Shown one piece after another: positions 425 to 27,251 of a stretch of DNA of 64,000 bases. The stretch is from Clostridium sp. (GTDB lineage: Bacteria > Bacillota > Clostridia > Clostridiales > Clostridiaceae): assembly GCF_021372645.1 (NCBI RefSeq), contig NZ_JAJFUC010000029.1, positions 1 through 64,000 on the forward strand, read 5' to 3'. Position numbers and translations under genes: made by a program. Position 1 is the first letter of the stretch. Each line of letters opens with the position of its first letter. Under the pieces are notes generated by a model. That model made no database searches. It was not told the origin of the DNA and saw nothing but the letters and a program-made list of their open reading frames with translations.

Positions 425-458
425 TCCTCATAAAATCTTCATAACTTTTTATTATAAT
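425..458 (+). promoter_or_regulatory. operator 1: 11-bp direct repeat plus -10 box
   Basis: TCCTCATAA at 425-433 and TCTTCATAA at 436-444 start 11 bp apart. A TATAAT box follows at 453-458, 17 bp after the start of the second repeat. The repeats cover the -35 position, as expected for an OmpR/PhoB-type activator. This drives the COG2836 fusion gene at 532. Same family as the sites at 2499, 3728, 7826, 12784, 14088 and 27218. Confidence 0.75.
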
Positions 459-531
459 TAATATATGTATAGATTGATTATAATTAAAGTTTGTTACTGG
501 AATAAAGTAAAATAATTCGGTGGAGGGCAAT

Positions 532-2358
532 ATGAGCATTAAGAGAGAGATTATTAAAGTATATGACATGACATGTACTTCTTGTGAAAACAGAGTGGAA
601 AAAGCATTAAAGAAAGTTGACGGAGTTGTAAATGCAATGGCAAGCTATAGTGCACAGCAAGTTACTGTTGAATATGACAGTAAATTATGCGCTAGGGAAC
701 AATTAAAGGAAGCTATTAATAAAACTGGTTATAGTACAAAAAGTTCAAATAACATTAAATTTGCAGGCTTTTTTGTTGTAGTTGCAGCTATTTTATTACT
801 AGGTAATTCTACATCAGGTTTTGATATGAGTGCTAAGTTAAATAATGCATCTTACGTGGTGTTATTTGTTGTTGGTATGCTTACATCTATCCATTGTGTT
901 GGTATGTGTGGTGGAATAATGCTTACACAAAGTTTATCTAAAAACAGCATTGTAAATGAAAAGCAGAATAGATTAAAGACTCTAATGCCTTCAATTTTAT
1001 ATAATGCTGGAAGAGTAACTTCATATACTATCATAGGTGGTATTGTAGGGGCTCTAGGTTCTGTATTATCATTATCACTTAATGTAAAAGCTGGACTTCA
1101 AATATTTGCTGGAGTATTTATGGTGATAATGGGATTAAATATGGCTGGTTTCTCTTTATTTAGAAAGTTCAATATTAAATTACCATGGTCATCATGTAAA
1201 ATAAAAAATAAACCTAAAGCTTCTTTCTTGGTTGGAATGCTAAATGGATTGATGCCTTGTGGACCATTACAAACAATGCAGCTATACGCGTTAGGCACAG
1301 GTAGTGCAGCAGCTGGAGCTATATCAATGTTATTGTTTTCATTAGGAACAGTTCCTTTAATGTTAGTATTTGGAGCAATATCAGGTTTTTTAAGTAAAGG
1401 TTATACGAAACAACTTCTAAAGTTTAGTGGGATTTTAGTAATAATACTTGGAATAATAATGGGGAATAGAGGTCTTGCCCTAGCAGGTGTTGGAGTTCCA
1501 GGTGTTGATACATTAACACAAAGCATTTCAGGAAATGGAGCTCAGGCATCTCAAACCAATATAGCTAAGGCAACTATTGAAAATGGAGTTCAAGTAATTA
1601 AGATGACTGCAGATAATAATGGCTATACTCCTAATGCTTTTTATGTGCAAAAAGGTATACCTGTTAAGTGGATTATCACAGGAAGTCAAATTAATTCTTG
1701 TAATAATGAAGTAGTAGTACCATCACTTAACATACAAAAAACTTTAAAGTCTGGTGAAAATATAATAGAATTTACACCAAAAGATGAAGATATAAATTTT
1801 AGTTGTTGGATGGGAATGATAAGAGGAGTAATTAAAGTTACAGATAATCTTGATTCTGTAGATACATCAAAGGCAGATTCATCAATTCCAGCTCCAAGCA
1901 GTGGAATGAGCTGCTGTACAGGTGGTGGTGGAGCAGCAAATACTGCACCACAAACGCCAAGCATATATGGTAATGATTTAAGTAAAGTTTCTACTGATAG
2001 ATTAGTTAAAAAGGCTAATATTTCAGGAAGCACTCAAAGATTAAATATAAAAGGAACTGGCTATGAGTTTGAGCCACTTGTAGTAGTGCTGGAAAAAGGA
2101 ATAAAAACTAACCTATCTATTGATCTTAATGATTTTGATAATTCGAATGGTGAATTTACTTTAGTAAATTCGGATAGTGGCGAGAAGGTAAGTTCATTTA
2201 CAGGGAAAAAAGGTATAGTTAATGTTGAATTTAAGATAGATAAAGCTGGAACTTATGTTATTATTAAAGATAATGTAGCAGCAGTTGGTCTTGAAGTTAC
2301 TGATTCATTAAAAACAGTGAACTTAGAGGATATTCGTAAAAAATTAATAAATGGATAA
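532..2358 (+). CDS. HMA - COG2836 (UreH/SafE-like) membrane - cupredoxin fusion protein
   Basis: A 608-residue protein. The ATG at 532 is preferred to the in-frame GTG at 520 because GGAGG at 522-526 lies inside the longer form and is well spaced from the ATG. Residues 1-68 are an HMA metal-binding domain with C15-T-S-C18. A multi-helix DsbD_2/COG2836 membrane domain follows (about 75-315), with the family motifs HCVGMCGG (C122, C126) and MPCGP (C243). Residues about 350-438 look like a cupredoxin, with possible ligands C390, C425 and M427/M429. A Gly/Cys linker (SCCTGGGG) leads to a second cupredoxin-like beta domain to the C-terminus. COG2836 proteins accompany ccoGHIS copper-delivery genes elsewhere. 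A role moving or buffering copper at the membrane is inferred. Operator 1 controls it and a terminator follows. Confidence 0.85.
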   Translation: MSIKREIIKVYDMTCTSCENRVEKALKKVDGVVNAMASYSAQQVTVEYDSKLCAREQLKEAINKTGYSTKSSNNIKFAGFFVVVAAILLLGNSTSGFDMSAKLNNASYVVLFVVGMLTSIHCVGMCGGIMLTQSLSKNSIVNEKQNRLKTLMPSILYNAGRVTSYTIIGGIVGALGSVLSLSLNVKAGLQIFAGVFMVIMGLNMAGFSLFRKFNIKLPWSSCKIKNKPKASFLVGMLNGLMPCGPLQTMQLYALGTGSAAAGAISMLLFSLGTVPLMLVFGAISGFLSKGYTKQLLKFSGILVIILGIIMGNRGLALAGVGVPGVDTLTQSISGNGAQASQTNIAKATIENGVQVIKMTADNNGYTPNAFYVQKGIPVKWIITGSQINSCNNEVVVPSLNIQKTLKSGENIIEFTPKDEDINFSCWMGMIRGVIKVTDNLDSVDTSKADSSIPAPSSGMSCCTGGGGAANTAPQTPSIYGNDLSKVSTDRLVKKANISGSTQRLNIKGTGYEFEPLVVVLEKGIKTNLSIDLNDFDNSNGEFTLVNSDSGEKVSSFTGKKGIVNVEFKIDKAGTYVIIKDNVAAVGLEVTDSLKTVNLEDIRKKLING

Positions 2359-2369
2359 AGTTCGTTATG

Positions 2370-2410
2370 AAAAAGTTGGTGTCTACTATATAAATAGATA
2401 TCAACTTTTT
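2370..2410 (+). terminator. rho-independent terminator
   Basis: A 16-bp stem with two G-U pairs (AAAAAGTTGG... with ...CAACTTTTT) ends in a T-run just after the fusion gene. Confidence 0.75.
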
Positions 2411-2498
2411 ATTGTGAAAGTTATGTATATAATTTATGTAGTCAGTTTTAATTATCTGGATAATTAAAATTTTAAATAATAATTAAAATTGATTCCTA

Positions 2499-2532
2499 TC
2501 TTCATATTATCTTCATAACATTTATTTATAAT
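2499..2532 (+). promoter_or_regulatory. operator 2: 11-bp direct repeat plus -10 box
   Basis: TCTTCATAT at 2499 and TCTTCATAA at 2510, 11 bp apart. TATAAT is at 2527-2532, 17 bp from the start of the second repeat. It drives the HMA pair at 2553 and 2819. Confidence 0.78.
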
Positions 2533-2552
2533 GTATTTACAAGGAGGCGATA

Positions 2553-2794
2553 ATGATGAAAAGCTATAGTTTAAGTTTTAAACAAGAAAGTATGCTTTGT
2601 CATGGATGTCTAATGAATGTTGTAAAAACGTTAAGCTCCCTTCAGGAGTTAGTAGGAGTTGATGTTAATCTAGAATCTAAAAAAAAATTAAAGTAATCTA
2701 TAAGGGTAAAGAGATATCAAGAGAAGATATTAAAGACATTGTAAATAGATCAATTTTAAGTGGGAAAGTCGTTAAGTTGGAACATTCGCTATAA
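2553..2794 (+). pseudogene. small HMA-domain metal-binding protein, frameshifted at an A9 run
   Basis: AAGGAGG at 2541 precedes ATG codons at 2553 and 2556. The frame reads a short HMA-like protein with a CHGC metal site (MLCHGCLMNVV) but stops at 2694-2696 after 47 residues, directly after nine A's at 2679-2687. A shift to the -1 frame at the A-run (as if one A were added) opens the rest of the fold (IKVIYKGKEISREDIK...), ending at 2792-2794, for about 80 residues. This may be a sequencing undercall, a real inactivating mutation, or slippage on the A-run. It is under operator 2 and is followed by the small membrane protein at 2819. Confidence 0.7.
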
Positions 2795-2818
2795 TAAAAA
2801 TATGAGGAGGAAATTATT

Positions 2819-3103
2819 ATGAATTGTCATGGAAATAATAAAAATGGAGAAAATAAAAAACACAATCCAATTAAGCATATGTTAATGATGGTACTTTGCT
2901 GCGGATTACCTTTTATAATTGTTGGAGCTCTTTCTTTTGTAAATATTGGAACAGGATTTAAAGCAGCAATAGGGGGAATAGCACCTTTCATATGTCCTAT
3001 AATGATGGTACTTATGATGGGGATGATGTTTAAGGATAGTAAGCATGAAAATTGCTGTAGTGGAAAGAAAGAAGTGAATGAAAGCCAAAACAAAATAGAA
3101 TAA
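2819..3103 (+). CDS. small Cys/His/Met-bearing membrane protein (unknown family)
   Basis: A 94-residue protein with a good GAGGAGG site at 2804-2810. The N-terminus is hydrophilic (MNCHGNNKNGEN). Two hydrophobic helices (about 20-40 and 48-68) follow, the second rich in Met (MMVLMMGMMF). The tail contains HENCCSG. I do not recognise a named family. Cys, His and Met at both ends of a short membrane hairpin, and its place in the same transcription unit as an HMA protein between other copper genes, suggest a role in copper binding or transport at the membrane. That role is inference. Confidence 0.75.
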   Translation: MNCHGNNKNGENKKHNPIKHMLMMVLCCGLPFIIVGALSFVNIGTGFKAAIGGIAPFICPIMMVLMMGMMFKDSKHENCCSGKKEVNESQNKIE

Positions 3104-3178
3104 CAGTTTATGTAAGTGTTTTTTTATAAAAATAAAAGAAATGGAAAATTAACGAATTACTGTTATATTTGCTACTAG

Positions 3179-3245
3179 TATAATAATTGTCTACTTACAA
3201 ATAATAATCAAGGATATTAAAAATATCTAGATTATTTTTAGGAGG
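3179..3245 (+). promoter_or_regulatory. promoter and leader of the DUF326 gene, shared with the DUF378 gene
   Basis: TATAAT at 3179-3184 is followed by a leader that aligns without gaps with the leader at 7235-7270 upstream of the DUF378 gene. Both contain TCTAnTTACAAATAATA at the same distance from the -10 box. A short hairpin (GATATT/AATATC) lies before the ribosome site. This leader lacks the TCTTCATA repeats, so a different regulator may act here. Confidence 0.45.
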
Positions 3246-3259
3246 ACAATATAACGAGT

Positions 3260-3601
3260 ATGGCTATGATGACCCAAAATAAACATCAAACATGTATCGA
3301 TGAATGTAATAAATGTGCACAAGCATGTTATGAATGCTTTAAAGCATGCTTAAATGAACCAGATGTTAATGCAAGAAAGAACTGTATAAGTTTGATTATT
3401 GAATGTGCACAAATGTGCCAGATGTCAGCTTCACTTATGTCAATGGAAGGTAAATTTATGAAAGAACATTGTAAATTGTGCGCTGATATATGTAATAAAT
3501 GTGCTGCAGAATGTGATATGTTTAAGGATGATCATTGTAGAAATTGCGCTACAGAATGTTATGCATGTGCAGATGAATGTAGGAAAATGACTAATATGTA
3601 G
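3260..3601 (+). CDS. DUF326 four-helix-bundle copper-binding protein (Csp-like)
   Basis: A 113-residue protein with 19 cysteines, mostly as CxxxC and CxxC pairs along predicted helices (CIDECNKCAQAC, CADICNKCAAEC, CATECYACADEC). This is the pattern of DUF326/Csp copper storage proteins, which line the core of a four-helix bundle with Cys thiolates and bind many Cu(I) ions. It has no signal peptide, so it should be cytosolic (Csp3-like). The start is uncertain: AGGAGG at 3240-3245 is 14 bp from the ATG at 3260 but 5 bp from an in-frame ATA at 3251, which may be a decayed ATG. The neighbours are copper genes. Confidence 0.88.
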   Translation: MAMMTQNKHQTCIDECNKCAQACYECFKACLNEPDVNARKNCISLIIECAQMCQMSASLMSMEGKFMKEHCKLCADICNKCAAECDMFKDDHCRNCATECYACADECRKMTNM

Positions 3602-3621
3602 TAGGATTAAAGAAATTTAGT

Positions 3622-3655
3622 AAAGAGTACTGCTTAATTTAAAGTAGTACTTTTT
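3622..3655 (+). terminator. rho-independent terminator
   Basis: The stem AAAGAGTACTGCTT pairs with AAAGTAGTACTTTTT just after the DUF326 gene and ends in T's. Confidence 0.7.
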
Positions 3656-3727
3656 ACTATTTAATAAATTATTAAGTTTCTAAATGAAAGTAAGCATAAA
3701 AGCAATTAGTTAGATTTTATAAATTCA

Positions 3728-3761
3728 TCTTCATATTTTCTTCATAAAAAAGAGTTAATAT
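3728..3761 (+). promoter_or_regulatory. operator 3: 11-bp direct repeat plus -10 box (copA promoter)
   Basis: TCTTCATAT at 3728 and TCTTCATAA at 3739, 11 bp apart. A TAATAT -10 box is at 3756-3761, again 17 bp from the second repeat start. Confidence 0.78.
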
Positions 3762-3837
3762 ATAGTCATAAAATAAATAACACATTAGGAATTTGCCTAA
3801 TTAATAAATAATATTTTTTAGAAAGGGGTTTTGTATA

Positions 3838-6282
3838 GTGGCTAATAAAATACTTAAAATAGAAGGAATGACTTGTGCAGCATGTGCTAAAGCTGTTGAA
3901 AGGGCAGCTAAAAAATTAGATGGTGTTACTGATGCAAATGTAAATATAGCTACGGAAAAATTAAGTATAACTTTTGATGAAGGAAAGTCTGATTTAGAAA
4001 AAATAAAAGCTGCAATAGAAAAAGCAGGATATAAAGCGATAAATGAAGCTACAAATGCTACTTTAAGGATAGAGGGAATGACTTGTGCTGCATGCTCAAA
4101 GGCAGTTGAAAGAGCTGTGAAAAAATTAAATGGAATAGTTGAAGCTAATGTTAATCTAGCAACAGAAAAGCTTTCTGTTTCTTTTGAACCTTCTATAGTA
4201 ACAATATCAGAAATAAAAAAGGCAGTGGATAAAGCTGGATACAATGCTACTAGTGAAGTTGAAGCAACAGTTGATAAGGATAAAGAAAGAAAAGAAAAAG
4301 AAATCAAGAATCTATGGAGAAGATTTCTAGTTTCAGTTATATTTACAGTACCATTATTAGTTATTACAATGGGGCATATGTTAGGTTATATGTTACCAGA
4401 GTTTATAGATCCAATGATAAATCCAATTAATTATGGAATAATTCAAGTTATTTTAGTTGTTCCAGTAATGCTGGCAGGAAAGAGATTTTTCCAAGTGGGA
4501 TTTAAATCCTTAATTATGAGAAGTCCCAATATGGATTCATTGATTTCAATCGGATCATCAGCAGCATTTTTATATGGGATTTTTGCAATATATCAGATTC
4601 TTATTGGAAATTTAAATTATGTATATGATTTGTATTTTGAATCAGCAGCTACAATTTTAACATTAATAACATTAGGTAAGTATTTAGAATCAGTAACTAA
4701 AGGTAAAACATCAGAAGCTATCAAAAAGCTAATGGGGCTTGTTCCAAAAACAGCTACTGTTATTAAAGATGGCAAGGAAATGATAATTCCAATAGATGAT
4801 GTTGAGGTAGGAGATATAATTTTTGTTAAACCAGGTGAAAAACTTCCTGTTGATGGTGAAGTTATAGAAGGGATGACTTCTATAGATGAATCAATGCTTA
4901 CTGGTGAAAGTATACCAGTTGAAAAGGCTATAGGTTCAAAAGTTATTGGTGCAAGCATAAATAAAAATGGATCTATAAAATATGTTGCTAAAAAAGTTGG
5001 AAAAGATACTGCATTAGCTCAAATTATTAAGTTAGTTGAGGAAGCTCAAGGATCAAAAGCACCTATAGCTAAGATGGCTGACATAATTTCTGGTTATTTT
5101 GTTCCTGTGGTTATGAGTTTAGCATTAATAGCTTCAATTACTTGGTATGTTCTTGGTCAATCACCTACATTTTCGTTAACTATCTTCATTGCTGTTTTAG
5201 TTATTGCATGTCCTTGTGCTTTAGGTTTAGCTACGCCAACAGCAATTATGGTTGGAACAGGTAAAGGTGCAGAAAATGGTGTACTTATCAAAAGTGGTGA
5301 AGCTCTAGAAACTGCTCACAAGGTTAAAACAATTGTATTTGATAAAACAGGAACTATTACTGAAGGGAAACCTAAGGTAACAGATATAATATCAATAAAT
5401 TTATCAAAAAATGAATTACTTCAAATTGCTGCCAGCGGAGAAAAAGGATCAGAGCATCCATTAGGAGAGGCGATTGTAAAATCTGCTGAAGAAAGAAAAA
5501 TTGAATTTAAACCAACAAAGAATTTTAAAGCTATTTTAGGAAAAGGTATAGAAGTTAATATTGATGATAAGAATATTTTATTAGGTAATAGAAGATTATT
5601 GATTGATAAAGAAATAAGTCTCGAATTTCTAGAAGATGAATCAAATAGATTAGCATCTGAAGGAAAGACACCAATGTATATTGTTATTAATAACAAGTTG
5701 GAATGCATAATTGCGGTAGCTGATACTGTTAAGGAAAGCAGCAAAAAAGCAATTGAAAAATTGCATTCAATGGGTATAGAAGTTGCAATGTTAACTGGCG
5801 ATAATAAAAGAACTGCGGATGCCATTGCTAAGGAAGTAGGAATAGATGTAGTTATTTCTGAAGTTCTACCAAATGATAAAGCGAAGGAAGTAAAAAGTCT
5901 TCAAGATAAAGGCAAAGTTGTTGCAATGGTTGGAGATGGAATAAATGATGCTCCAGCATTGGCTCAGGCAGATATGGGAATTGCAATTGGTTCAGGTACA
6001 GATGTAGCCATTGAATCTGCTGATATAGTTTTAATGAGAAGTGACTTAATGGATGTTCCTACAGCAATTCAATTAAGTAAGAAAACTATAGGAAATATAA
6101 AACAAAATTTATTTTGGGCTTTTGGATATAATACTCTAGGAATACCAGTAGCTATGGGAATATTATATGCTTTTGGTGGTCCATTATTAAACCCAATGAT
6201 TGCAGCACTTGCTATGAGTTTAAGTTCTGTGTCTGTATTATTAAATGCTCTTAGGCTAAAGACTTTTAAACCTTTAGTTTAA
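3838..6282 (+). CDS. copA: copper-exporting P1B-type ATPase CopA
   Basis: An 814-residue protein with a GTG start after AAAGGGG. It pumps Cu(I) out of the cytosol using ATP. Two tandem HMA domains are present (C13-A-A-C16 and C83-A-A-C86), about 45% alike by eye, followed by the eight-helix P1B core. The membrane metal site is C458-P-C460. The phosphorylation motif is DKTGT at 502, the actuator motif is TGES, the SEHPLGEA motif typical of P1B pumps is present, and GDGINDAP is at 699. CPC with two CxxC domains is the Cu(I) class signature. The CopZ chaperone gene follows 82 bp downstream. Operator 3 controls the promoter. Confidence 0.97.
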   Translation: MANKILKIEGMTCAACAKAVERAAKKLDGVTDANVNIATEKLSITFDEGKSDLEKIKAAIEKAGYKAINEATNATLRIEGMTCAACSKAVERAVKKLNGIVEANVNLATEKLSVSFEPSIVTISEIKKAVDKAGYNATSEVEATVDKDKERKEKEIKNLWRRFLVSVIFTVPLLVITMGHMLGYMLPEFIDPMINPINYGIIQVILVVPVMLAGKRFFQVGFKSLIMRSPNMDSLISIGSSAAFLYGIFAIYQILIGNLNYVYDLYFESAATILTLITLGKYLESVTKGKTSEAIKKLMGLVPKTATVIKDGKEMIIPIDDVEVGDIIFVKPGEKLPVDGEVIEGMTSIDESMLTGESIPVEKAIGSKVIGASINKNGSIKYVAKKVGKDTALAQIIKLVEEAQGSKAPIAKMADIISGYFVPVVMSLALIASITWYVLGQSPTFSLTIFIAVLVIACPCALGLATPTAIMVGTGKGAENGVLIKSGEALETAHKVKTIVFDKTGTITEGKPKVTDIISINLSKNELLQIAASGEKGSEHPLGEAIVKSAEERKIEFKPTKNFKAILGKGIEVNIDDKNILLGNRRLLIDKEISLEFLEDESNRLASEGKTPMYIVINNKLECIIAVADTVKESSKKAIEKLHSMGIEVAMLTGDNKRTADAIAKEVGIDVVISEVLPNDKAKEVKSLQDKGKVVAMVGDGINDAPALAQADMGIAIGSGTDVAIESADIVLMRSDLMDVPTAIQLSKKTIGNIKQNLFWAFGYNTLGIPVAMGILYAFGGPLLNPMIAALAMSLSSVSVLLNALRLKTFKPLV

Positions 6283-6364
6283 AGGATTTATTATAATAAA
6301 AAATGCTTAAAAGGATTAAATAAAGCCTTAAAGCTAATAATGTAATTTGAGAGGAGAAATGAAA

Positions 6365-6574
6365 ATGAAAAAGAAAATAGTAATTGAAGGTATGAGTTGT
6401 GGGCATTGTGTAAGCCATGTTGCTGAAGCTCTTGAGGAGGTTGGAGCAGGTGATATAAAAGTAAATCTAGAAGAAGGAAATGCCATTGCTGAAGTTGGAG
6501 ATGTTTCTGATGAAGCAATTAAAGCAGCTATTGAAGATGCAGGATATGATGTTTTAGAAATTGAAGAAGCTTAA
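6365..6574 (+). CDS. copZ: copper chaperone CopZ
   Basis: A 69-residue single HMA domain with GMSCGHC near the N-terminus, the length usual for CopZ. It carries Cu(I) to CopA. The ATG at 6365 is chosen because GAGGAG at 6351-6356 is 8 bp away. The ATG at 6359 is only 2 bp from that site, and the TTG at 6347 lies upstream of it. No terminator separates it from copA, so cotranscription is likely. The acidic second half (EEVGAGDIKVNLEEGNAIAE) suits docking with CopA. Confidence 0.93.
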   Translation: MKKKIVIEGMSCGHCVSHVAEALEEVGAGDIKVNLEEGNAIAEVGDVSDEAIKAAIEDAGYDVLEIEEA

Positions 6575-6629: not shown

Positions 6630-6693
6630 ATAGTCTGTGTAAACTTCATGAAGATGATATGATAAATAATCAAGTGATGTTTACACAGACTAT
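6630..6693. repeat. perfect 15-bp inverted repeat hairpin
   Basis: Bases 6630-6644 (ATAGTCTGTGTAAAC) are perfectly complementary to 6679-6693, with a 34-nt spacer. It lies after copZ and next to the multicopper oxidase relic. No T-run follows directly, so it is not a classic terminator. It may be a small palindromic insertion or a processed RNA structure. Confidence 0.6.
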
Positions 6694-6820
6694 ATCTTTA
6701 TTTAGAGATAAATTAGATAAATTTATTAATAGAGTTTATGTTATATATTCTAAATCATATTACCATATATATTCTTCAGAATGTGCGCAAAAATATAGTA
6801 TTAGAAGATATTATATTATC

Positions 6821-7171
6821 ATGCTCAAAGAGTTTAAAGTAGAAGAATTACCAATGGGAGTAGTTAAAACTGGTAAATATGAAATAGATCCTCATTCACA
6901 TGACTTTAATTTCTTTACAATGAATGGAAGAGCTTTTCCTTTTACCACTCCTTTAGTAGTGAAACATGGTGAAAATATAAAGATAAGACTAGCAAATGCT
7001 ATGGAAAAGGCTCATCATATTCATAAACATCAGTTCATAATATCGGCTGCTGATGGAAATATAATAGATCCACGAAATAGAATGAAAAAAGAGCAATATA
7101 CATGTAGCATCAGGGGAAACATGGGATGCTGAATTTTTTACTGAATTAAAAGTATTAAGGAGTCTAATATG
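6821..7171 (+). pseudogene. multicopper oxidase relic (cupredoxin domain fragment, frameshifted)
   Basis: The frame from 6821 encodes FTMNGRAFPFTTPLVV...RLANAMEKAHHIHKHQF...AADGN, the pattern of a C-terminal multicopper oxidase domain, including an HxHxH copper-binding stretch (HIHKH). Near nt 7093 the frame is lost. The next frame continues with NIHVASGETWDAEFF, which fits the family, and then stops at 7169-7171. The final HCH-type motif and all upstream domains are missing. An open frame extends back to 6659, but that part does not look like an oxidase. The cell once had a copper oxidase here and has lost it. Confidence 0.75.
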
Positions 7172-7825: not shown

Positions 7826-7859
7826 TCTTCATAAAATCTTCATAAAAAAATGTTATTAT
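7826..7859 (+). promoter_or_regulatory. operator 4: 11-bp direct repeat plus -10 box (chemoreceptor promoter)
   Basis: TCTTCATAA at 7826 and a second identical copy at 7837. TATTAT is at 7854-7859, 17 bp from the second copy. This is the cleanest pair in the window. Confidence 0.8.
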
Positions 7860-7958: not shown

Positions 7959-9671
7959 ATGAAAATATTTAATAATTTAAAACTTGCACAAAAGCTTATA
8001 TTTTGCTTCTTATTAATTTCATTTCTTATGGGGATCATTGGATTTAGAGGGATATCAGAAATAAAAAAAATAAATGCAAATTCAACTTCTATGTATGAGG
8101 ATAATTTAATACATTTAAAAACAGTTGAAGAGTTAAAAGCAAACTTTTTACAGATACATTCAGATTTACTAGCGCTTTTAACATCAAAAGATGAGGCAAA
8201 AAAGCAGGAAATTGAAAATGAAATAGAAAAGTTAACCAATGAAGATATGATGATTTCTGAAGAATTTAAAAATGCAGGTGAAACTGGCGAAGAAGAGGAA
8301 TTATTAACAAATTTTATGAAGCTTCACGAAAAATATATGATGGCACGTAAAGATTTTATGGATTTGATAAATGCAAATAAATACGATGAAGCACAAGTGG
8401 CTTTTCAAATGGTAACTGAGACTAGAGATAAAACTTTTGATAGTATTAATAAAATAATTGAGTCAAATGTAAAAGAAGCTGAAAATGCAAATAATGCTAA
8501 TAATTTAATATTTAAGAATTCATTTAATTTAATGCTTGGTATAGTTATATTTGGTTTCGTATTTGCAATATTACTTGGAGTTTTAATTTCAACATTAATA
8601 TCAAAACAAATAAATAAGGTTTTAATATTTGCGAATGCTCTAGGTAGTGGTGATTTAACTCAGAGAATAGATTTTTATTCAAAAGATGAAATAGGAAAAA
8701 TATCAAATGCGTTAAATAAAGCAACTGAAAATACTAGAAATCTTATATCAGCAATAATTTCGAATTCTAGCAGTATAAAAGAATCAAGTGAAGAAATTTA
8801 TAGCACTATAGAAGATATATCTACAAAAATGAATAATATTAATAAAGCTACAAAGGAAATATCAGCTGGTACAGAAGAATTAAGTGCAAAATCACAAGAA
8901 GTAAATGCATCAATTGAAGAAATAACTTCAAATTCTATTGAATTATCAAATAAGGCAAAGGATTGTGATAAAGCTTCTAATGAGATTCAGGTACGTGCCA
9001 CAGAAATAAAAGATAAAGGGTTAAAATCAATAGATATTTCTAAGAAAATGTATAAAGAGAAGCAAGAAAATATATTGAGAGCAATAGAAGAAGGAAAAGT
9101 TGTTGAAAAAATTAAAGTTATGGCTGATTCTATAGCCAATATAGCATCTCAAACAAACCTTTTAGCATTAAATGCAGCTATTGAATCAGCAAGAGCTGGT
9201 GAAATGGGGAAAGGTTTTTCGGTAGTAGCAGATGAGATACGCAAGCTTGCAGAACAGTCAGCAGAGAATGTTTCAAGTATACAAGAAGTTATCACTCAGG
9301 TGAATAATGCTTTCAAAAATCTTTCGAATAACACTCAAGAGATATTGGCCCATATTGATAATAATGTAAATCCAGATTATGAGCTATTTTTAGAAACTGC
9401 TTTTAAATATGAAGAAGATGCAGTATTTATAAAAACTATGTCAAAAGAAATTGCAAATGGTACAACCCAAATACTTCATTCTATAGAACAAACTAGTGTT
9501 GCTATAGAAACAGTATCTACTACTGCTCAGCAATCAGCAGAAAGCTCAGAAGGAATACTAAATAGTGTAGATGAGACAACTATTGCAACTCAAGAGGTTG
9601 CGAGTTCAGCACAAAGACAAACTCAATTATCTGAGGAACTTAATTCTTTAGTACAAAAATTTAAAATATAA
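7959..9671 (+). CDS. methyl-accepting chemotaxis protein
   Basis: A 570-residue receptor with a GGGGAGGG site. TM1 is near residues 12-32, followed by a four-helix-bundle (4HB_MCP) ligand domain. TM2 is at about 188-212, then a HAMP domain, then a long cytoplasmic coiled coil with the conserved signalling tip ([21 protein letters not shown]...[13 protein letters not shown]). It would control CheA and flagellar motor bias. The ligand cannot be read. The promoter carries the same operator as copA and the other copper genes, so the receptor is probably made under the same stress and may steer cells along a metal or redox gradient. It stands alone as a transcription unit with its own terminator. 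Confidence 0.93.
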
Positions 9672-9736: not shown

Positions 9737-9875
9737 ATTTAGCTAATTTATAATGCAAAGTATATTTTTATTGTATTAGAAAAAAATATATATTGTATTT
9801 ATATAAAAGAATGATTTTATAAATTGTTAAATATAATAATTGTTATTTTATAACATAGGAGAAAGGATAAAAATA

Positions 9876-11098: not shown

Positions 11099-11992
11099 TT
11101 ATACTTTTAAAAATTTAATTAAAGACCATGAGCTTCCCACACTTCCAATTAAAATACCGATTAATATAAACTGCCATTGAAGGGTTTGGGTAATATAAGA
11201 TGGTGATAATAAGTTTATTAAAAGTAAATTTTCGTTTATCTTTATAAAAATTAATTTATAAAAATAGTATACTAAAATATTGGAACACACAGCCCCAAAC
11301 AAACCAATAATTGCACCTTCAATAATAAGTGGCCATCTTATAAACCAATCAGTTGCTCCAACGAACTTCATTATTCCAATTTCTCTACGCCTTGAGTAAA
11401 TCGTTAATTTTATAGTATTGCTAATAAGAAATATAGAAACTGACACCATTAATATGAATAAAGAAATTCCAATCCATTTCACGTTTTTAGATATTGAAAT
11501 TATTTTATTAGCAAATTCTTGATCATTGCCAATGGATTCTATACCAGGCATATTTTCCATTGAACTTATGACTTGTTGATAAATATCAGGACTTTCTAGC
11601 TCTATTATGTATGAATTAGGTAATGGATTGTTGGAAGAATCATAATTATTTAATAGAGAACTATTATTTTCAGAAACCTGTTTATTAAACTTTTCTAAAG
11701 CTTCCGATTTATTTTCAAATTTAACACTTTTGATACCAGATATATTACTTAACTTTTGATCTATGTTTTCCTGATCTTTATTAGTAATGTTATCATTTAA
11801 AAATACTTGTATTTGAACCTGCGATTCAACATTACTCATTCCTATATTTATATTTTGCATTAATAGTATGAAAACTCCCATTATAAATAAAGTAGCAGTT
11901 ACTGTAATAACCGATGCTAGACTAATGGTTCTATTTCTTTTTAAACTCTTTAATGCATCAATAATATAAAATTTGAAAGTATTAACATTCAT
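11099..11992 (-). CDS. ftsX: cell division protein FtsX
   Basis: A 297-residue membrane protein. The start at 11992 is chosen because a GGGGG ribosome site lies just upstream, and the protein then begins MNVNTFKFY, as usual for Gram-positive FtsX. It has one N-terminal TM, a large extracellular loop (about 45-165) that in other bacteria contacts a peptidoglycan hydrolase, and three C-terminal TMs. FtsX is the membrane half of the FtsEX complex. It overlaps ftsE by 11 bp, so translation is probably coupled. The divergent NlpC/P60 hydrolase at 12899 is the likely target. Confidence 0.93.
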   Translation of the reverse strand: MNVNTFKFYIIDALKSLKRNRTISLASVITVTATLFIMGVFILLMQNINIGMSNVESQVQIQVFLNDNITNKDQENIDQKLSNISGIKSVKFENKSEALEKFNKQVSENNSSLLNNYDSSNNPLPNSYIIELESPDIYQQVISSMENMPGIESIGNDQEFANKIISISKNVKWIGISLFILMVSVSIFLISNTIKLTIYSRRREIGIMKFVGATDWFIRWPLIIEGAIIGLFGAVCSNILVYYFYKLIFIKINENLLLINLLSPSYITQTLQWQFILIGILIGSVGSSWSLIKFLKV

Positions 11993-12668
11993 AATCGTAA
12001 GTCCCCCTAATTTCATCTCGTATTATAGTTCCATTATCAATAGCAATGACTCTCTTTCTCATTGAATCAACGATATCTTTTGCATGAGTAGCCATAAGTA
12101 TAGTTGTACCGTTTTTATTAACATTATCGAGCGTGTCCATAATTCCCATTGCAGTTTCAGGATCGAGATTTCCTGTTGGTTCATCGGCAATTAAAATATT
12201 AGGACCATTGATTATAGCTCTAGCAATTGAAACTCTCTGCTGTTCACCACCAGATAATTGGCTTGGAAATGACTTGAATTTATCAGATAATCCAACTAGT
12301 GATAAAGCCATAGGTACTTTCTTTTTTATATCTTTAGTACTGGCACCGATAACCCTTAATGCAAAAGCTACATTTTCATATACATTAAGTGTTGGAATTA
12401 GTTTAAAATCTTGAAATATTACGCCTATCTTTCTTCTGTAAAAAGGTATTTGATTTTTATTTAGGTTGGTTACATCAGTATCATTTAAAATTAACTTGCC
12501 ATGTGTCGGATCAATTTCTTTGAAAAGCATTTTTATTATTGTTGATTTACCGGCACCGCTTGAGCCTACTAAAAAAGCAAAATCACCTTTTTTTATAGTT
12601 AAATTCACATTTTTAAGAGCCAATGTGTTATTGTCATATGCTTTAGTCACGTCTACAAATTTAATCAT
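11982..12668 (-). CDS. ftsE: cell division ATP-binding protein FtsE
   Basis: A 228-residue ABC ATPase. The ATG at 12668 is preferred over upstream in-frame codons because GGAGG lies at about 12674-12678 and the protein then begins MIKFVDVTKAYD. The Walker A GSSGAGKST, signature LSGGEQQRVSIARA, Walker B ILIADEPTGNLD and switch His (MATHAKD) are all present. With FtsX it transmits ATP hydrolysis across the membrane to switch on a wall hydrolase at division. It is transcribed divergently from that hydrolase. Confidence 0.95.
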   Translation of the reverse strand: MIKFVDVTKAYDNNTLALKNVNLTIKKGDFAFLVGSSGAGKSTIIKMLFKEIDPTHGKLILNDTDVTNLNKNQIPFYRRKIGVIFQDFKLIPTLNVYENVAFALRVIGASTKDIKKKVPMALSLVGLSDKFKSFPSQLSGGEQQRVSIARAIINGPNILIADEPTGNLDPETAMGIMDTLDNVNKNGTTILMATHAKDIVDSMRKRVIAIDNGTIIRDEIRGTYDYEC

Positions 12669-12783
12669 TAGTAATCCTCCAATTAAATGATATTTTATAT
12701 CCTTGTGTATTTTTGTGATATTATAACTTATTTTTATGAAGAAATTATGTGTTTTTATTTGGTAATATATACCTATATATGAA

Positions 12784-12817
12784 TCTACATAATTTCTACA
12801 CAATTTTAGTGTATTAT
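12784..12817 (+). promoter_or_regulatory. operator 7: 11-bp direct repeat variant plus -10 box
   Basis: TCTACATAA at 12784 and TCTACACAA at 12795, 11 bp apart. TATTAT is at 12812-12817, 17 bp from the second copy. On the opposite strand it reads TGTAGA-N5-TGTAGA, close to a WalR/YycF box, a known controller of wall hydrolases. It may therefore belong to a sister regulator rather than the copper one. Confidence 0.65.
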
Positions 12818-12898: not shown

Positions 12899-13999
12899 GT
12901 GAAAAAAACAATTAAAACGGTTATGTTTGCAACAGCATTAGTGATAGTTACTCAAGTCTCAGCATTTGCTGTACCAACATCTCAATCACAAACTCAATTG
13001 GAGCAAAATAAAAATTCATTAAAGGAAGCGCAAGACAAAAGGCATGAACTTGAAGCAAGTATTGAAGAGCTAGATAATCAAATTGAAGATTATATGATGA
13101 AAATTGAGGAAAATAAAAAGAGTATAACAGGAACAGAAAACGATATCCAAACAACAAAGAAACAAATTACTCAAGTTGAAGAAGAAGTGAAAAGTAAGCA
13201 AGATGCTTTGGATCAAAGAGTAAGGGCAATGTATATAAATGGCCAATCTAGTTATCTAAATATATTATTAGAATCAGAAAGTTTTAGTGATTTAATAACA
13301 AGAGCTGAAGCAATTAGAAAAATAATAGGTATGGATAAAAAAGTAATAGGCGATTTAAATGATATGAAAGCCGAAGTGGAAAGCAAAAAAGCATCCCTTG
13401 ATGTAAAGTATAATGATTTAATTGCACTGAAGAGTGAAAATGAAAATAAATTAACAAACTTAAACAGTAGCGTAGCAGATCAGAAGAAACTTATTGAAGA
13501 TGCTAAAACTCAAGAAAAACTATACGCATCAAAGGTAGATGAATCTGAAGCTTTAGTAAATGCATCTATGAAGGCAGTAACTAAAATAAGAAATGAAGCA
13601 CCTAGTGTTAAGGCTTCAAGAGGAGCAACTTCTGCAGCGCCAGTTTCTAACAATAACATAATAGCATATGCATCAAATTTCTTGGGAACTCCGTATCTTT
13701 GGGGAGGGACAAGTCCATCAACAGGGTTTGATTGCTCAGGATTTACTCAATATGTATATGCGCATTTTGGGATAAGCCTAGGAAGAACAACTTATGACCA
13801 AATAAATGATGGATACGGTATATCAAGAGATGAGCTACAGCCAGGAGATCTTGTATTCTTTGGTAAGAATGGTGATCCTACTCACATGGGTATGTACGTT
13901 GGCAATAATATATATATTCATTCGCCAAGAACAGGTGATGTGATAAAAATATCATCAATGGATAGACCAGATTACATTACAGCTAGAAGAGTTAAATAA
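12899..13999 (+). CDS. coiled-coil NlpC/P60 peptidoglycan hydrolase (PcsB/CwlO-type)
   Basis: A 366-residue secreted protein with a GTG start after AAGGGAG. It has a signal peptide (about 1-24, cleaved near AFA-VP), then a long coiled coil (about 30-215), a Ser/Ala linker and an NlpC/P60 domain (about 252-366). The catalytic Cys is C279 (GFDCSGF), with His in THMGMYVG and a third polar residue in YIHSPR. The architecture matches hydrolases held inactive until FtsEX opens the coiled coil. The divergent ftsEX pair supports that. It cuts peptide stems of peptidoglycan during separation. Operator 7 controls it. Confidence 0.93.
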   Translation: MKKTIKTVMFATALVIVTQVSAFAVPTSQSQTQLEQNKNSLKEAQDKRHELEASIEELDNQIEDYMMKIEENKKSITGTENDIQTTKKQITQVEEEVKSKQDALDQRVRAMYINGQSSYLNILLESESFSDLITRAEAIRKIIGMDKKVIGDLNDMKAEVESKKASLDVKYNDLIALKSENENKLTNLNSSVADQKKLIEDAKTQEKLYASKVDESEALVNASMKAVTKIRNEAPSVKASRGATSAAPVSNNNIIAYASNFLGTPYLWGGTSPSTGFDCSGFTQYVYAHFGISLGRTTYDQINDGYGISRDELQPGDLVFFGKNGDPTHMGMYVGNNIYIHSPRTGDVIKISSMDRPDYITARRVK

Positions 14000-14087: not shown

Positions 14088-14121
14088 TCTTCATATGTTC
14101 TACATATTTTATTACTATAAT
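14088..14121 (+). promoter_or_regulatory. operator 5: 11-bp direct repeat plus -10 box
   Basis: TCTTCATAT at 14088 and TCTACATAT at 14099, 11 bp apart. A perfect TATAAT is at 14116-14121, 17 bp from the second copy. It drives the micro-protein and lgt. Confidence 0.78.
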
Positions 14122-14154: not shown

Positions 14155-14292
14155 ATGAGTATTGAAGTTATAATAACAGTTGCATTAATTCTAGTCGTTG
14201 CACATATTCTTTATCACAAAGTTATAAAAAATATGTTAGGAGGATGTTGTTGTAGTAAAGATGATAAGTCTAAGAAAAAGTGCAATAAATAA
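14155..14292 (+). CDS. 45-residue Cys-rich single-pass membrane micro-protein (FeoB-associated-like)
   Basis: A short gene with a strong TTGGAGG site and ATG at 14155. One N-terminal membrane helix (VIITVALILVVAHILYH) is followed by a cytosolic tail with GGCCCSKDD and a final CNK. This layout (TM, then CCC/CxC and basic residues) resembles the FeoB-associated Cys-rich membrane protein family, but no feoAB lies nearby. It stands directly under operator 5 and 39 bp before lgt. A role as a membrane-tethered metal-binding peptide in the copper regulon is inferred. Confidence 0.75.
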   Translation: MSIEVIITVALILVVAHILYHKVIKNMLGGCCCSKDDKSKKKCNK

Positions 14293-14331: not shown

Positions 14332-15162
14332 ATGAAGGAACTTTTTAGCTTTGGACCAATACATATATATTTTTTTGGTTTAATGATAGCAATAGCTGCA
14401 ATTACAGGTGGAGCATTTGCAATTAAGCAAGGAGAAAAAAGAGGAATAAACGAAGATATAATGTTTAATTTAATTAATATAGTAGTTATATCAGGAGTAC
14501 TGGGAGCTAGGTTATTTTATATTCTTTTTTATAATCCATCATTTTATTTTAGCAACCCAGGGGAAATATTTAAGATAAATGAAGGTGGACTTTCAATTCA
14601 CGGCGGAATTTTCTCAGCTGTAGCTGCAGGATATTTGTATTCAATTAAAAGCAAAATATCATTTCTTAAGCTTGCAGATATTGCAGTTGTTGGAATAGCA
14701 TTAGCTCAAGGTATTGGAAGAGTAGGGTGTGATGTATTTGGTAAGCCTATGAATAGTATTATGATATGGGGGATTAACTATAATGGGCAAATACTACATC
14801 CGGCACAAGTATATGAGTTTATTTTAGACTACGTATTATTTATAGTTCTATGGAGAAGAAGTTATAAGAAAAAGTTTGAAGGTGAACTGTTTGCAATTTA
14901 CTTAATTGCTTTTGCAATAATAAGAGGTATTGTGGAATTCTTTAGAATAAATCCTGTGGTATGGGGACCATTCTCAATTTCACATTTATTGAGTCTTGGT
15001 TTAATTATAATTGGGTTAGTGATTTATATATCATTATCAAAGAGAAAGATAGAAGATGTTAATATTTCTACAGAGAATGAAATAAAACTGATAACTATGA
15101 TGCTTTATTTAATTATTTTAATAATAATATCTATTTTTACATTTTATTTTGTACAAGGGTAG
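14332..15162 (+). CDS. lgt: prolipoprotein diacylglyceryl transferase Lgt
   Basis: A 276-residue integral membrane enzyme with GAAAGGA before the ATG. It transfers diacylglycerol from phosphatidylglycerol to the lipobox Cys of prolipoproteins. The Lgt core is visible: YGxx-like N-terminus (FSFGPIHIYFFGLMIA), GGLSIHGG with the essential His, the GRVGCDVFGKPM signature, HPAQVYE and about seven TM helices. It is cotranscribed with the micro-protein under operator 5. A second, truncated copy lies at 26645-27188. Being under a copper-type operator suggests it may be a second Lgt for stress-induced lipoproteins. Confidence 0.92.
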   Translation: MKELFSFGPIHIYFFGLMIAIAAITGGAFAIKQGEKRGINEDIMFNLINIVVISGVLGARLFYILFYNPSFYFSNPGEIFKINEGGLSIHGGIFSAVAAGYLYSIKSKISFLKLADIAVVGIALAQGIGRVGCDVFGKPMNSIMIWGINYNGQILHPAQVYEFILDYVLFIVLWRRSYKKKFEGELFAIYLIAFAIIRGIVEFFRINPVVWGPFSISHLLSLGLIIIGLVIYISLSKRKIEDVNISTENEIKLITMMLYLIILIIISIFTFYFVQG

Positions 15163-23777: not shown

Positions 23778-23857
23778 AATCAATTGATGATTAATCATTA
23801 ATTAAACGTGGCATAGCCACTTTGTTTAAGTAATTTTAATTAATAGGAGGACTAATT

Positions 23858-24757
23858 ATGAGTGAATTATCACATCTTGATAAATTAGAAGCAGAAGCAA
23901 TGTATATTATTAGAGAAGTAGCCGCAGAATGTGAAAAACCAGTAATGTTATATTCTATTGGTAAAGACAGTTCAGTTATGCTGCATCTTGCAATGAAAGC
24001 ATTTTATCCTGAAAAGCCGCCATTCCCTTTCATGCATATTGATACAACATGGAAATTTAAGGAGATGGTAGAATTTCGTGATAGAAAAGCAAAAGAATTA
24101 GGTATAGAAATGATTGTCCATTCAAATGAGGAGGGTATAAGGCAAGGAATTAATCCTCTTGAGCATGGTTCAGCTTATACTGATATTATGAAGACACAAG
24201 CCTTAAAGCAAGGGTTAAGCAAATATGGTTTTACAGCAGCTTTTGGTGGGGGACGTCGTGATGAAGAAAAATCTCGTGCAAAGGAAAGAATTTTCTCCTT
24301 CAGAAATGAAGCACAAGCATGGGATCCTAAAAATCAAAGACCAGAAATGTGGAAGCTTTATAATACTAAAATAAATAAAGGTGAAAGCATGAGAGTTTTC
24401 CCAATTTCAAACTGGACTGAAAATGATATCTGGCAATATATAAAACGTGAAAATATTGATATTGTTCCTTTATATTTTGCTAAAGAAAGACCATGCATTG
24501 AGCGTGATGGCAATATTATCATGGTAGACGATGATAGATTAAAGCTATTACCAGGTGAAAAAGTTGAGCATAAAAAAATAAGATTTAGAACACTTGGATG
24601 TTATCCATTAACAGGTGGTTTTGAATCAGATGCAGTTACTTTAGATGCAATTATTGATGAAACCCTTAGTGCTGTATCATCTGAGAGAACAACTAGAGTT
24701 ATAGATAGTGAAGCAGCAGGTAGTATGGAAAGAAGAAAGAGAGAGGGGTATTTCTAA
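23858..24757 (+). CDS. cysD: sulfate adenylyltransferase, small subunit CysD
   Basis: A 299-residue PP-loop enzyme with the nucleotide motif [13 protein letters not shown] near residue 33. AGGAGG precedes the ATG. With CysN it forms APS from sulfate and ATP. The conserved blocks [35 protein letters not shown] and [13 protein letters not shown] are those of CysD. One base separates its stop from the cysN start. An 80-bp gap with a small GTGGCATAGCCAC hairpin separates it from aprB. Confidence 0.96.
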
Positions 24758-24758
24758 A

Positions 24759-26447
24759 ATGAAGAGTTTATTAAAGTTCATAACATGTGGTAGCGTAGAT
24801 GACGGAAAATCTACTCTTATTGGGCATATTTTGTATGATTCAAAGCTTTTATATGCAGATCAGGAAAAAGCTTTAGAACTAGATAGTAAGGTTGGTAGTA
24901 GAGGTGGAGCAATAGACTATTCTCTATTATTAGATGGTTTAATGGCGGAGCGTGAACAAGGGATTACAATAGACGTTGCATATCGTTATTTTACAACTGA
25001 TAATAGAAGTTTTATTGTAGCAGATACTCCAGGGCATGAAGAGTATACTAGAAACATGGCAGTAGGTGCATCTTTTGCAGAACTTGCTATTATATTATTA
25101 GATGCAAAGCAAGGGGTACTTGTTCAAACAAGAAGACATGCAAGAATTTGTTCTTTAATGGGTGTAAAACATTTTGTGTTTGCAGTTAATAAAATAGATT
25201 TAGTAGAATACAATCATAAAAGATTCCTAGAAATTGAAGAGCAAATCAAAGAATTAGTAAAAGAACTTTCATTAGAAAATGTTCATATAATTCCAGTATC
25301 AGCTACAGAAGGGGATAATGTTACAAAGAAATCAGAAAATACTCCATGGTATCAAGGCGAAGCACTTTTAACACATCTGGAAAATGTAGAGATTGATAAT
25401 AAATCAGAAGAAGGTTTCTATATGCCAGTTCAAAGGGTATGTAGACCAAATCATACTTTTAGAGGATTCCAAGGGGAAATTGAAGCAGGAAGTATTGCTG
25501 TAGGAGACGAAATCACAACACTTCCTAGCAATGAAAAAGCTCTAGTAAAAAGCATTCATGTTACAGATAAGGAATCACAAAGTGCAGGGCAAGGACAGGC
25601 GGTCACAATACAGCTTAATAAAGAAGTTGATGTATCAAGAGGCTGTGTACTTACAAAAGGAACTAACATTGCTCCAAGCAAGCTGCTTAGTGCAAAGATT
25701 CTTTGGATGGATGATTCGGAATTAACAGCAGGTAAAGAGTACTTTGTAAAAGTTGGTACTAAGATGTTAACTGGTGTTGTAACAGATGTAAAATATAAAA
25801 TTGATGTAAACACTGGAGAGCATTTACCAACTGGATATTTAACAAAAAATGAAATAGCAGCATGTGATATTTTACTTTCTGAAAAAATAGTTGTTGATAA
25901 GTTCGATGCACATAAAACTTTAGGAGAACTTATTTTAATAGATCGTATTACTAATATGACATCAGCTTGTGGTGTTATAGAAGATGTTCATAATAATGAT
26001 ATTAAAAGTGGAAAATTTTCTTTTGAATATAACGAATTAAAAGCAAGAGGAGATATTTTTGAGGAATTTTATTATGATACAGAAACTTTGTCTATATTTA
26101 AATATAAACCAGAAGAACAAACTTATACTGTAGGCGATAAACTTCCAATAAAAGGTGATAGTTACGAATATCCAAAGAATTTTGATTTATTAGTTCTTCG
26201 TGATGGAGTAGCAATTGAGGTTCGTAATGAGGAAATTATCAGTATAAAACCAATTGGTAATTATAAGTATCAAGGAGTTCCGGTTATTAATGGCAGAGGG
26301 TTTGAAGTAAAGGTAAATTCTAATGAGGAAGTTACAACATTCTTGAGTGAATATAAAGGAACTAATGAAAAAACTCTAGGGGATTTCTTGAATAAGTGGG
26401 TTAAGTTTGAAACTTATAGAAAAGTAGTTTTTCATAGCACTAACTAG
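24759..26447 (+). CDS. cysN: sulfate adenylyltransferase, GTPase subunit CysN, with extra C-terminal segment
   Basis: A 562-residue protein with ATG 24759 after GAGAGGGG, one base after cysD. It has an EF-Tu-like GTPase domain: G1 GSVDDGKST, G3 DTPGHEEYTRNM, G4 NKID, and the switch sequence AEREQGITIDVAYRYF. Beta-barrel domains follow to about residue 430. GTP hydrolysis drives APS formation by CysD. E. coli CysN is about 475 residues. The extra roughly 110-130 residues here have no P-loop and are not an APS kinase (CysC). I do not recognise the extra segment. Lack of CysC fits the use of AprAB. Confidence 0.94.
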   Translation: MKSLLKFITCGSVDDGKSTLIGHILYDSKLLYADQEKALELDSKVGSRGGAIDYSLLLDGLMAEREQGITIDVAYRYFTTDNRSFIVADTPGHEEYTRNMAVGASFAELAIILLDAKQGVLVQTRRHARICSLMGVKHFVFAVNKIDLVEYNHKRFLEIEEQIKELVKELSLENVHIIPVSATEGDNVTKKSENTPWYQGEALLTHLENVEIDNKSEEGFYMPVQRVCRPNHTFRGFQGEIEAGSIAVGDEITTLPSNEKALVKSIHVTDKESQSAGQGQAVTIQLNKEVDVSRGCVLTKGTNIAPSKLLSAKILWMDDSELTAGKEYFVKVGTKMLTGVVTDVKYKIDVNTGEHLPTGYLTKNEIAACDILLSEKIVVDKFDAHKTLGELILIDRITNMTSACGVIEDVHNNDIKSGKFSFEYNELKARGDIFEEFYYDTETLSIFKYKPEEQTYTVGDKLPIKGDSYEYPKNFDLLVLRDGVAIEVRNEEIISIKPIGNYKYQGVPVINGRGFEVKVNSNEEVTTFLSEYKGTNEKTLGDFLNKWVKFETYRKVVFHSTN

Positions 26448-26628
26448 AAGGAATAAATAGATTAGTATTTGGTTTTTGTAGAATTATGGTAAATAAGAAA
26501 GCACTAATAAATTCATGTTTGTTAAATGTGTTTTTTGCAAATTAACTATAACAAATTAGAGTCTCATTTTCTATATTTTTCTATCACTCTTTAGGTGAAA
26601 GTTCAATATTTATAGAGTTTAGTATTTT

Positions 26629-26652
26629 AGCCATGCAAAGCATGGCTTTTTA
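26629..26652 (+). terminator. rho-independent terminator ending the sulfate operon
   Basis: AGCCATGC-AAA-GCATGGCT followed by TTTTT. The 3' arm and T-run merge directly into the lgt-like relic. Confidence 0.85.
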
Positions 26653-27188
26653 GCTTTGGTCCAATACATATATACTTTTTTTGTTTAATGATAGCAATAG
26701 CCTCAATTATAGGTGGTGCATTTGCAATTAAGCAAGGAGAAAAGAGAGAAATTAATGAAGATATAATCTTTAATTTAATTGTTATTGTTGTTATAGCAGG
26801 TGTATTAGGAGCTAGACTATTTTATATTATTTTTTATAATCCATCATTTTATTTTAATAATCCAGGAGAAGTATTTAAAATAAATGAAGGTGGGTTATCT
26901 ATACATGGAGGAATTGTTTCAGCTGTGGCTGCAGGATACATATACTCTATTAAGAGTAAGATATAATTTTTAAAACTTGCAGATATTGCAGTAGTTGGTA
27001 TAGCGTTAGCTCAAGGAATAGGTAGAGTAGGCTGCGATGTATTTGGCAAACCAATGGCAAACATAATGCTATGGGGAATTAACTATAATGGACAAATACT
27101 TCATCCTGCACAAGTATACGAGTTTATTTTAGACTATATATTATTTATAGTCTTATGGAGAAGAAATTACAAGAAAAAATTTGAAGTG
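26645..27188 (+). pseudogene. truncated direct copy of lgt
   Basis: The sequence matches lgt nt 14341 to about 14882 at roughly 85-90% by eye, in the same orientation. It lacks the first codons, the start and the ribosome site, because homology begins inside the cysN terminator. It also has an in-frame TAA after SIKSKI (near 26964) where lgt continues with SFLKLADI. It ends at about residue 183 of lgt, missing the last third. The GRVGCDVFGKPM block survives. Operator 6 begins 30 bp later. Confidence 0.9.
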
Positions 27189-27217
27189 TAATTATGATTT
27201 TAAATATTTTTAAATTA

Positions 27218-27251
27218 TCTTCATAATATCTACACATGTTCTTTGTATACT
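27218..27251 (+). promoter_or_regulatory. operator 6: 11-bp direct repeat plus -10 box
   Basis: TCTTCATAA at 27218 and TCTACACAT at 27229, 11 bp apart. TATACT is at 27246-27251, 17 bp from the second copy. It drives the polyprenyl synthase and perhaps the genes after it. Confidence 0.75.

Follow-up and report, generated by a model that had tools for sequence, protein, structure and literature searches.

The first 64 kb of contig C34 from the Clostridium sp. genome G000, a stretch that starts at contig base 1 and is called the window here, holds seven promoters that share a predicted operator of fixed geometry. Quite probably these seven promoters, together with an eighth that faces ftsEX, form one regulon of a linked PhoB/OmpR-family response regulator (RR), which would activate them from the predicted operators. 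In the mechanism that we propose, the RR would be encoded with a sensor kinase at the left edge of the locus and would bind as a head-to-tail dimer to two 11-bp units with the consensus TCTWCATA-N3-TCTWCAYA. The downstream unit would take the place of the -35 box, so that the RR could contact RNA polymerase and activate transcription from a -10 box 17 bp further on, and the extracytoplasmic domain of the kinase would sense copper or redox stress in the envelope. The RR as the binder, its phosphorylation, the activation and the copper or redox signal are all elements that we infer from sequence comparison.

Geometry of the operator sites

An earlier note on this DNA had placed the seven promoters at 425, 2499, 3728, 7826, 12784, 14088 and 27218, each with a pair of related 9-mers whose starts lie 11 bp apart and the second of which begins 17 bp before a -10 box. 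A site-by-site printout bore out all seven coordinates, both spacings at 7/7 sites, and the -10 boxes themselves (TATAAT, TATAAT, TAATAT, TATTAT, TATTAT, TATAAT and TATACT). The first 9-mer at site 425, TCCTCATAA, carries one mismatch, and the last base is T in some of the 9-mers of the seven sites. There is no -35 consensus, the match to TTGACA being at most 3/6 at spacers of 15 to 19 in all seven promoters.

The fixed spacing had been held to exceed AT-rich chance, and it does: the strict pattern, TCTWCATA-N3-TCTWCAYA-N9-TANNNT with at most one mismatch, matches the window at exactly these seven places and is absent from 100 dinucleotide shuffles (mean 0.00, largest 0). Without the -10 box and with up to three mismatches the excess is weaker, with 28 window matches against 12.3 expected and 22 in the largest shuffle; thus much of the signal is carried by the fixed distance to the -10 box. 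A weight matrix trained on the sites of 70 relatives, with no window site included, gave its seven highest scores in the window (21.7 to 35.7) to these same sites, and the best score in the reversed window was 4.4. Ranking next is an eighth, divergent operator with its -10 box, at 12720..12753 on the minus strand (score 16.6 at 12753), which is absent from the earlier list and faces ftsEX. The ftsEX-facing site also occurs in relatives, with the same score (16.6) in genome G008 (L176:13981) and a score of 10.7 in locus L044.

Conservation in relatives

The 612-aa HMA-DsbD-cupredoxin protein (HMA-DsbD protein), encoded behind site 425, served as bait against genome contigs, and the best 80 of 221 relatives yielded 79 loci, with a few species represented twice. 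Counting sites with at most two mismatches and TANNNT at +28 within about 320 bp upstream of the gene, we found a consensus site in 70 of the 79 loci and in none of the 79 reversed stretches; among the 70, the match in L061 looks weak. The weight matrix built from these 70 sites recovered a site of the same geometry in eight of the nine remaining loci (scores 14.9 to 32.1), bringing consensus and profile together to 78/79 and leaving L095 as the sole locus of the 79 without a site by either method. Run over the reversed loci (1.445 Mb), the matrix gave three scores of 10 or more, the highest being 12.3. By their record titles, the loci span Clostridium, Bacillus/Neobacillus and Sedimentibacter.

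For the distance to the -10 box, strong -10 hexamers were tallied over offsets 20 to 39, starting from every site with at most one mismatch in the 79 loci. Of these 206 hexamers, 138 lie at offset 28, and the next highest count (18) is at offset 39, one 11-bp unit further. Two head-to-tail 11-bp units, with the downstream unit over the -35 position and the -10 box at this offset, agree with the class-II OmpR/PhoB layout that the earlier note had put forward. Four 11-bp units stand in tandem at L071:9164-9186 and L072:9162-9184, which suggests extended operators at these two places.

The same note had expected few hits in a scan of the whole source genome, and few were found. In the G000 assembly (3.12 Mb, 105 contigs), the pattern with the -10 box and at most one mismatch gave 12 matches, with none in the reversed control. 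Leaving out the -10 box raised this to 16 matches against one, and allowing two mismatches with the -10 box to 24 against four. Further afield, a site with at most one mismatch was present in 13 of 20 relatives, with one reversed-control match across all 20. Of the 194 genomes sampled across the order, 66 had an exact site with TATNNT, and the reversed control gave no match.

These controls bear on the possibility that the sites are products of AT-rich chance or of a spreading mobile promoter sequence. The DNA has a G+C content of 28% and several neighbouring sites fall in a small region, both of which would fit such an origin, but the shuffles were empty, the reversed loci and genomes were empty or nearly so, and the flanking sequences differ among the seven sites. 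As a main explanation we regard chance or mobility as refuted, with a negligible probability left to it.

Targets of the operator

Ten of the 12 strict sites in G000 are the seven of the window and those at C7:2194, C7:1187 and C24:12513; the other two are at C40:22575 and C104:28780. The site at C7:2194 precedes nuoA of a complex I operon of 11 open reading frames (ORFs), in which the NuoA model scores 130 bits against a cut-off of 163 and the other subunits were identified by eye. This operon (locus L017, C7, 2329-11783) lies under the operator and contains no NuoE, NuoF or NuoG genes. The site at C7:1187 precedes a short ORF that is Spo0E-like by eye, and that at C24:12513 a MenA-like prenyltransferase gene. 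Two of the matches with two mismatches, at C40:944 and C2:1081, look real by their place, the latter lying before what by eye is a peptide deformylase ORF. At C40:230-1300 (L120), after a 5S rRNA gene identified by eye, lies a decayed duplicate of the unit of regulator, operator and HMA-DsbD gene; it retains a regulator remnant of 26 residues at 81% identity, the operator with its -10 box at 944 (score 28.0) and a broken HMA-DsbD copy.

Targets in relatives were counted over 86 loci, with a site scored when it lay within about 330 bp upstream of a gene. A site was present before 70 of 81 HMA-DsbD genes, 16 of 22 pcsB homologues, 14 of 17 homologues of the 94-aa protein gene at 2819 in the window, and 4/4 hepT genes. 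RR homologues had one in 22 of 66 cases, paralogues and G008 included. The counts for the other labelled genes were copA 2/33, copZ 1/19, menA 1/4, lgt 1/4 and the methyl-accepting chemotaxis protein (MCP) gene 1/3. Genes with weak matches never had a site (0/71), and no phosphate gene appears among the labelled targets. Across 68 genomes of the genus, hepT-like genes number nine copies in eight genomes, with a site at 9/9, and nuoB occurs in five genomes, with a nuoA site in 5/5.

In G008 a contiguous island carries sites before a MenA-like gene, nuoA, the RR gene, a homologue of the gene at 2819, an MCP gene, pcsB, lgt and hepT, and the target set of the window looks like a rearranged form of this island. 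Since sites precede RR genes, including the one in the G008 island, the RR is probably autoregulated. The operator also stands before genes for an FtrD-like membrane iron-sulfur protein (L040:14225 and L044:20648), and a lipoprotein-like protein of about 237 aa with no Pfam family recurs behind it in other species, at L051:15226-15936, L057:5692-6411, L066:12293-13012 and L102:15029-15742.

Among the five island-bearing genomes (G000, G008, G074, G099 and G126), MenB exceeds its curated cut-off only in G099 (C1:4787781, L195), where its neighbours are menE-, menH- and menD-like by eye, and the futalosine family PF02621 is found in 0/5. G000, G008, G074 and G126 may depend on an outside source of 1,4-dihydroxy-2-naphthoate (DHNA).

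The linked response regulator and its kinase

At its left edge the window opens on the 3' end of a sensor histidine kinase gene (1..366, plus strand; catalytic domain, HATPase_c 1.2e-27), at the point where the contig begins. This fragment shares 74% identity with residues 337-457 of the kinase of C. beijerinckii HUN142 (L038), whose gene lies directly after an RR gene and before the HMA-DsbD gene. The earlier note had placed the regulator just left of the window. Relatives do tie an RR to the edge kinase; the part that did not stand is the gene itself, as the window starts at contig base 1 and no intact orthologue of the linked RR was found in the G000 assembly. From the kinase fragment and the relatives we infer that the gap left of C34 would hold the G000 gene. 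An RR and kinase near the end of contig C88 were considered as the missing pair and rejected: the C88 kinase ORF is whole, and the C88 RR shares only 32% identity with the linked orthologue.

Orthologues of the linked RR were defined by at least 58% identity over more than 200 aa and searched within the fetched stretch of each locus. They occur in 43 of the 79 loci, or 44 with G008, and a kinase gene follows directly in 41 of the 44. The G008 RR has the Response_reg and Trans_reg_C domains of a receiver and winged helix. Its recognition helix, DR(T/I/S)(I/V)DVHIKN(I/L)RKKIE, is exact in 39 of the 44 orthologues, the other five being one residue off or cut, and is carried by none of the 12 other OmpR-type RRs that a Trans_reg_C search found in G000. 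In the N-terminal 228 residues of the kinase, Glu72, His75, Met79, Asn81, Tyr82 and Met97 are invariant (34 of 40 sequences aligned), and a profile of this sensor found no relative among solved structures (best E 0.16).

In the 194 genomes of the order, with RR presence called at E <=1e-75, the RR occurs in 88. Site and RR are found together in 57 genomes, the site only in 9, the RR only in 31 and neither in 97, giving an odds ratio of 19.8 (Fisher p 3e-17, phylogeny not corrected). Because of the gap left of C34, G000 is scored among the genomes with the site only.

Taken together, the data make the linked RR orthologue the best candidate reader of the operator, with a second reader possible. 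Several observations weigh against a single regulon of this RR. An intact orthologue is missing from the G000 assembly itself and from the fetched stretches of the other 36 HMA-DsbD loci, and in at least six loci (L049, L051, L090, L094, L105 and L115) the only RR of this kind is one 46-52% identical. In the order, 31/88 RR genomes have no exact site and 9/66 site genomes no RR at the cut-off. Sites also stand before 34 of 350 other forward ORFs (>=200 aa) in the 79 loci and before 63 of 821 unlabelled genes in the 86, and copA genes have one in just 2/33. Activation is read from the layout of the sites only, and the copper signal only from the company that the genes keep.

The RRs in the group with 46-52% identity resemble the linked RR in their helix, and in several loci their genes are preceded by similar sites, so that the operators may also be read by a second regulator. 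On this reading the linked RR and its relative would share the operator as a cross-regulated pair. Sites of a similar kind precede the genes of the second group (L050, L057, L058 and L115; L047 and L051), and the loci of the second group only, named above, have a site before the HMA-DsbD gene. A precedent is HssR and HitR of B. anthracis, which cross-regulate through related direct repeats (PMC3968170). Set against this are the 43 loci with an orthologue of the main RR, and neither group has an intact copy in the G000 assembly. We hold a shared operator to be unlikely, though worth keeping in view beside the single regulon of the linked RR.

The signal

The target that was traced most widely, and that had also served as bait, speaks for copper as the signal; the complex I and menaquinone genes speak for redox state or oxygen. 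In the second case the RR would sense the respiratory or redox state (oxygen or the quinone pool), with the copper genes secondary. The menaquinone and complex I operons have the site in every genome where they were found, the menaquinone site has the highest score of the window, and in B. subtilis the YclJ regulon is up at low oxygen, with yclJK under ResDE (PMC7961091). On the other side, it is the HMA-DsbD-cupredoxin protein that was followed as a target from Clostridium into Bacillus and Sedimentibacter; since this protein was the bait, other targets were sampled only near its gene. The invariant His75, Met79 and Met97 of the kinase sensor would be compatible with metal binding, which is no proof of it. 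We give the redox reading a fair chance, though less than an even one.

Relation to known systems

The class II PHO box of E. coli is positioned over the -35 region, as the downstream unit would be here. It consists of two 11-nt direct repeat units, of which CTGTCAT is the most conserved motif (PMC4415409); head-to-tail units, a TCAT core and a PhoB-family RR are common to both systems. This layout of the same kind raises the question of whether the sites are simply Pho boxes read by the ordinary phosphate regulator PhoB, and the helix of the linked RR does resemble that of an RR encoded beside a pstS-like gene (by eye) on contig C58 of G000. However, the 200 bp before that pstS-like gene hold TTTAACA repeats and no operator, the best score in the 7-kb stretch being 1.3, and phosphate genes are lacking among the labelled targets. 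The candidate identity of the linked RR with PhoB was also rejected, the G008 RR scoring 181.8 against the PhoB equivalog cut-off of 296.2, and E. coli PhoB has other targets and another kinase. An ordinary Pho box is thus a very improbable account of these sites.

Heavy-metal regulators of the CusR/CopR/CzcR type (TIGR01387) are likewise OmpR-type RRs encoded beside copper genes, but the linked RR scores 170.2 against their cut-off of 279.2. The YclJ box of B. subtilis is reportedly TTCATA-N5-TTCATA, with repeats 11 bp apart. YclJ-YclK is likewise an RR-kinase pair that has envelope targets and is expressed at low oxygen; its named targets yngABC and ykcBC are, in contrast, sugar and cell-wall genes and not copper or quinone genes (PMC7961091).

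The HssR box reads GTTCATATT-N2-GTTCATATT. As is predicted for the operator described here, the boxes of HssR-HssS and HitR-HitS are direct repeats read by an RR, in their case under haem or envelope stress and with cross-reading of two RRs (PMC3968170, PMC6305404), but their targets are hrtAB and hitP. As the cut-offs for PhoB and CopR/CusR/CzcR are not reached and the pstS-like promoter differs, we file the operator under a known kind of mechanism. Class-II PhoB-like activation is such a kind; no description of the operator or the regulon was found in a limited search of open-licence PMC papers, which covered the motif TCTTCATA together with a response regulator.

Genes behind the operators in the window

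All features below lie on the plus strand unless stated otherwise, and operator spans include the -10 box. The first operator (425..458, profile score 32.6) precedes the gene for the HMA/DsbD_2/cupredoxin membrane protein (532..2358, domains by Pfam). Its start is ATG 532, as the GTG at 520 given in the ORF list falls within the ribosome-binding site by eye. The second (2499..2532) stands before a short HMA-like ORF (2553-2700; CHGC by eye), which has an early stop after an A-rich run and looks broken, and the gene of the 94-aa protein (2819..3103), membrane-like by eye and without a Pfam family. Behind the third (3728..3761), whose score of 21.7 is the lowest of the seven, lie the copper P-type ATPase gene copA (3838..6282; Pfam, TIGR01511 at 638 bits with a cut-off of 397) and a CopZ-like HMA protein gene (6347-6574). 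A 157-aa ORF further on (6659-7132) has no Pfam match and resembles a cupredoxin or multicopper-oxidase fragment by eye; it begins within an inverted repeat with 14-base arms at 6631-6644 and 6679-6692.

The earlier note had copper genes dominating the targets. This holds only in part: metal genes follow three of the seven promoters, and the other four face the chemoreceptor gene, pcsB, a Cys-rich ORF with lgt, and the menaquinone operon. The chemoreceptor operator (7826..7859) precedes an MCP gene with a 4HB sensor domain (7959..9671, Pfam), and the same gene in G008 also has a site. A beta-propeller gene at 9840 was considered as a nitrous-oxide reductase and dropped, the L-NosZ model giving 106 bits against a cut-off of 700. 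On the minus strand, an ftsE-like ABC gene and ftsX (11099..12668; Pfam ABC_tran, FtsX and FtsX_ECD, with the ftsE ATG at 12668 taken from the sequence) are faced by the eighth operator, and the pcsB operator (12784..12817) precedes the gene of a PcsB-type peptidoglycan hydrolase (12899..13999; CC_PcsB and NlpC/P60 by Pfam). The sixth operator (14088..14121) serves, by position, a small Cys-rich ORF (14155-14292, by eye) and lgt, encoding prolipoprotein diacylglyceryl transferase (14332..15162; Pfam, TIGR00544 at 137.6 bits with a cut-off of 118.9).

A second, broken lgt copy (26688-27190; Pfam LGT on 26688-26963, the rest by eye) lies directly before hepT and 11.5 kb downstream of the intact gene. 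Between the two copies is a sulfate-assimilation cluster with nitrite/sulfite-reductase-like, sulfate ABC transporter, AprA-like, CysD and CysN genes, and because pcsB, lgt and hepT are adjacent in G008, the cluster looks like an insertion that was accompanied by a duplication of lgt. The last operator (27218..27251), at 35.7 the top-scoring one, precedes the menaquinone operon (27338..32846), which by Pfam encodes a HepT-like polyprenyl diphosphate synthase, a YtkA-like protein, a NapH-like ferredoxin protein, MenA, a CPBP protein and MenG. In NCBIfam tests MenA and MenG exceed their curated cut-offs, and the HepT and NapH models are not reached.

Implications

The regulon appears to join copper handling at the membrane with the synthesis of menaquinone and an 11-gene complex I operon; a chemoreceptor, the modification of lipoproteins, and FtsEX with a peptidoglycan hydrolase would also belong to it. 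One tentative reading, which we put forward as possible but rather unlikely, is that the two-component system switches on a membrane electron chain along with genes for copper handling and wall remodelling, the whole serving as a quinone respiration that can be induced or as a metal-reducing defence. The parts of such a chain would be a complex I without NADH-module genes, menaquinone (prenyl synthase, MenA and MenG) and the NapH- and YtkA-like envelope proteins, and complex I without its NADH module would probably be fed by ferredoxin. The operator, the regulator family and the target list can now be tested in laboratory clostridia and bacilli. They would link the handling of copper with functions of quinones, complex I and the cell wall in a genus that is usually treated as fermentative.

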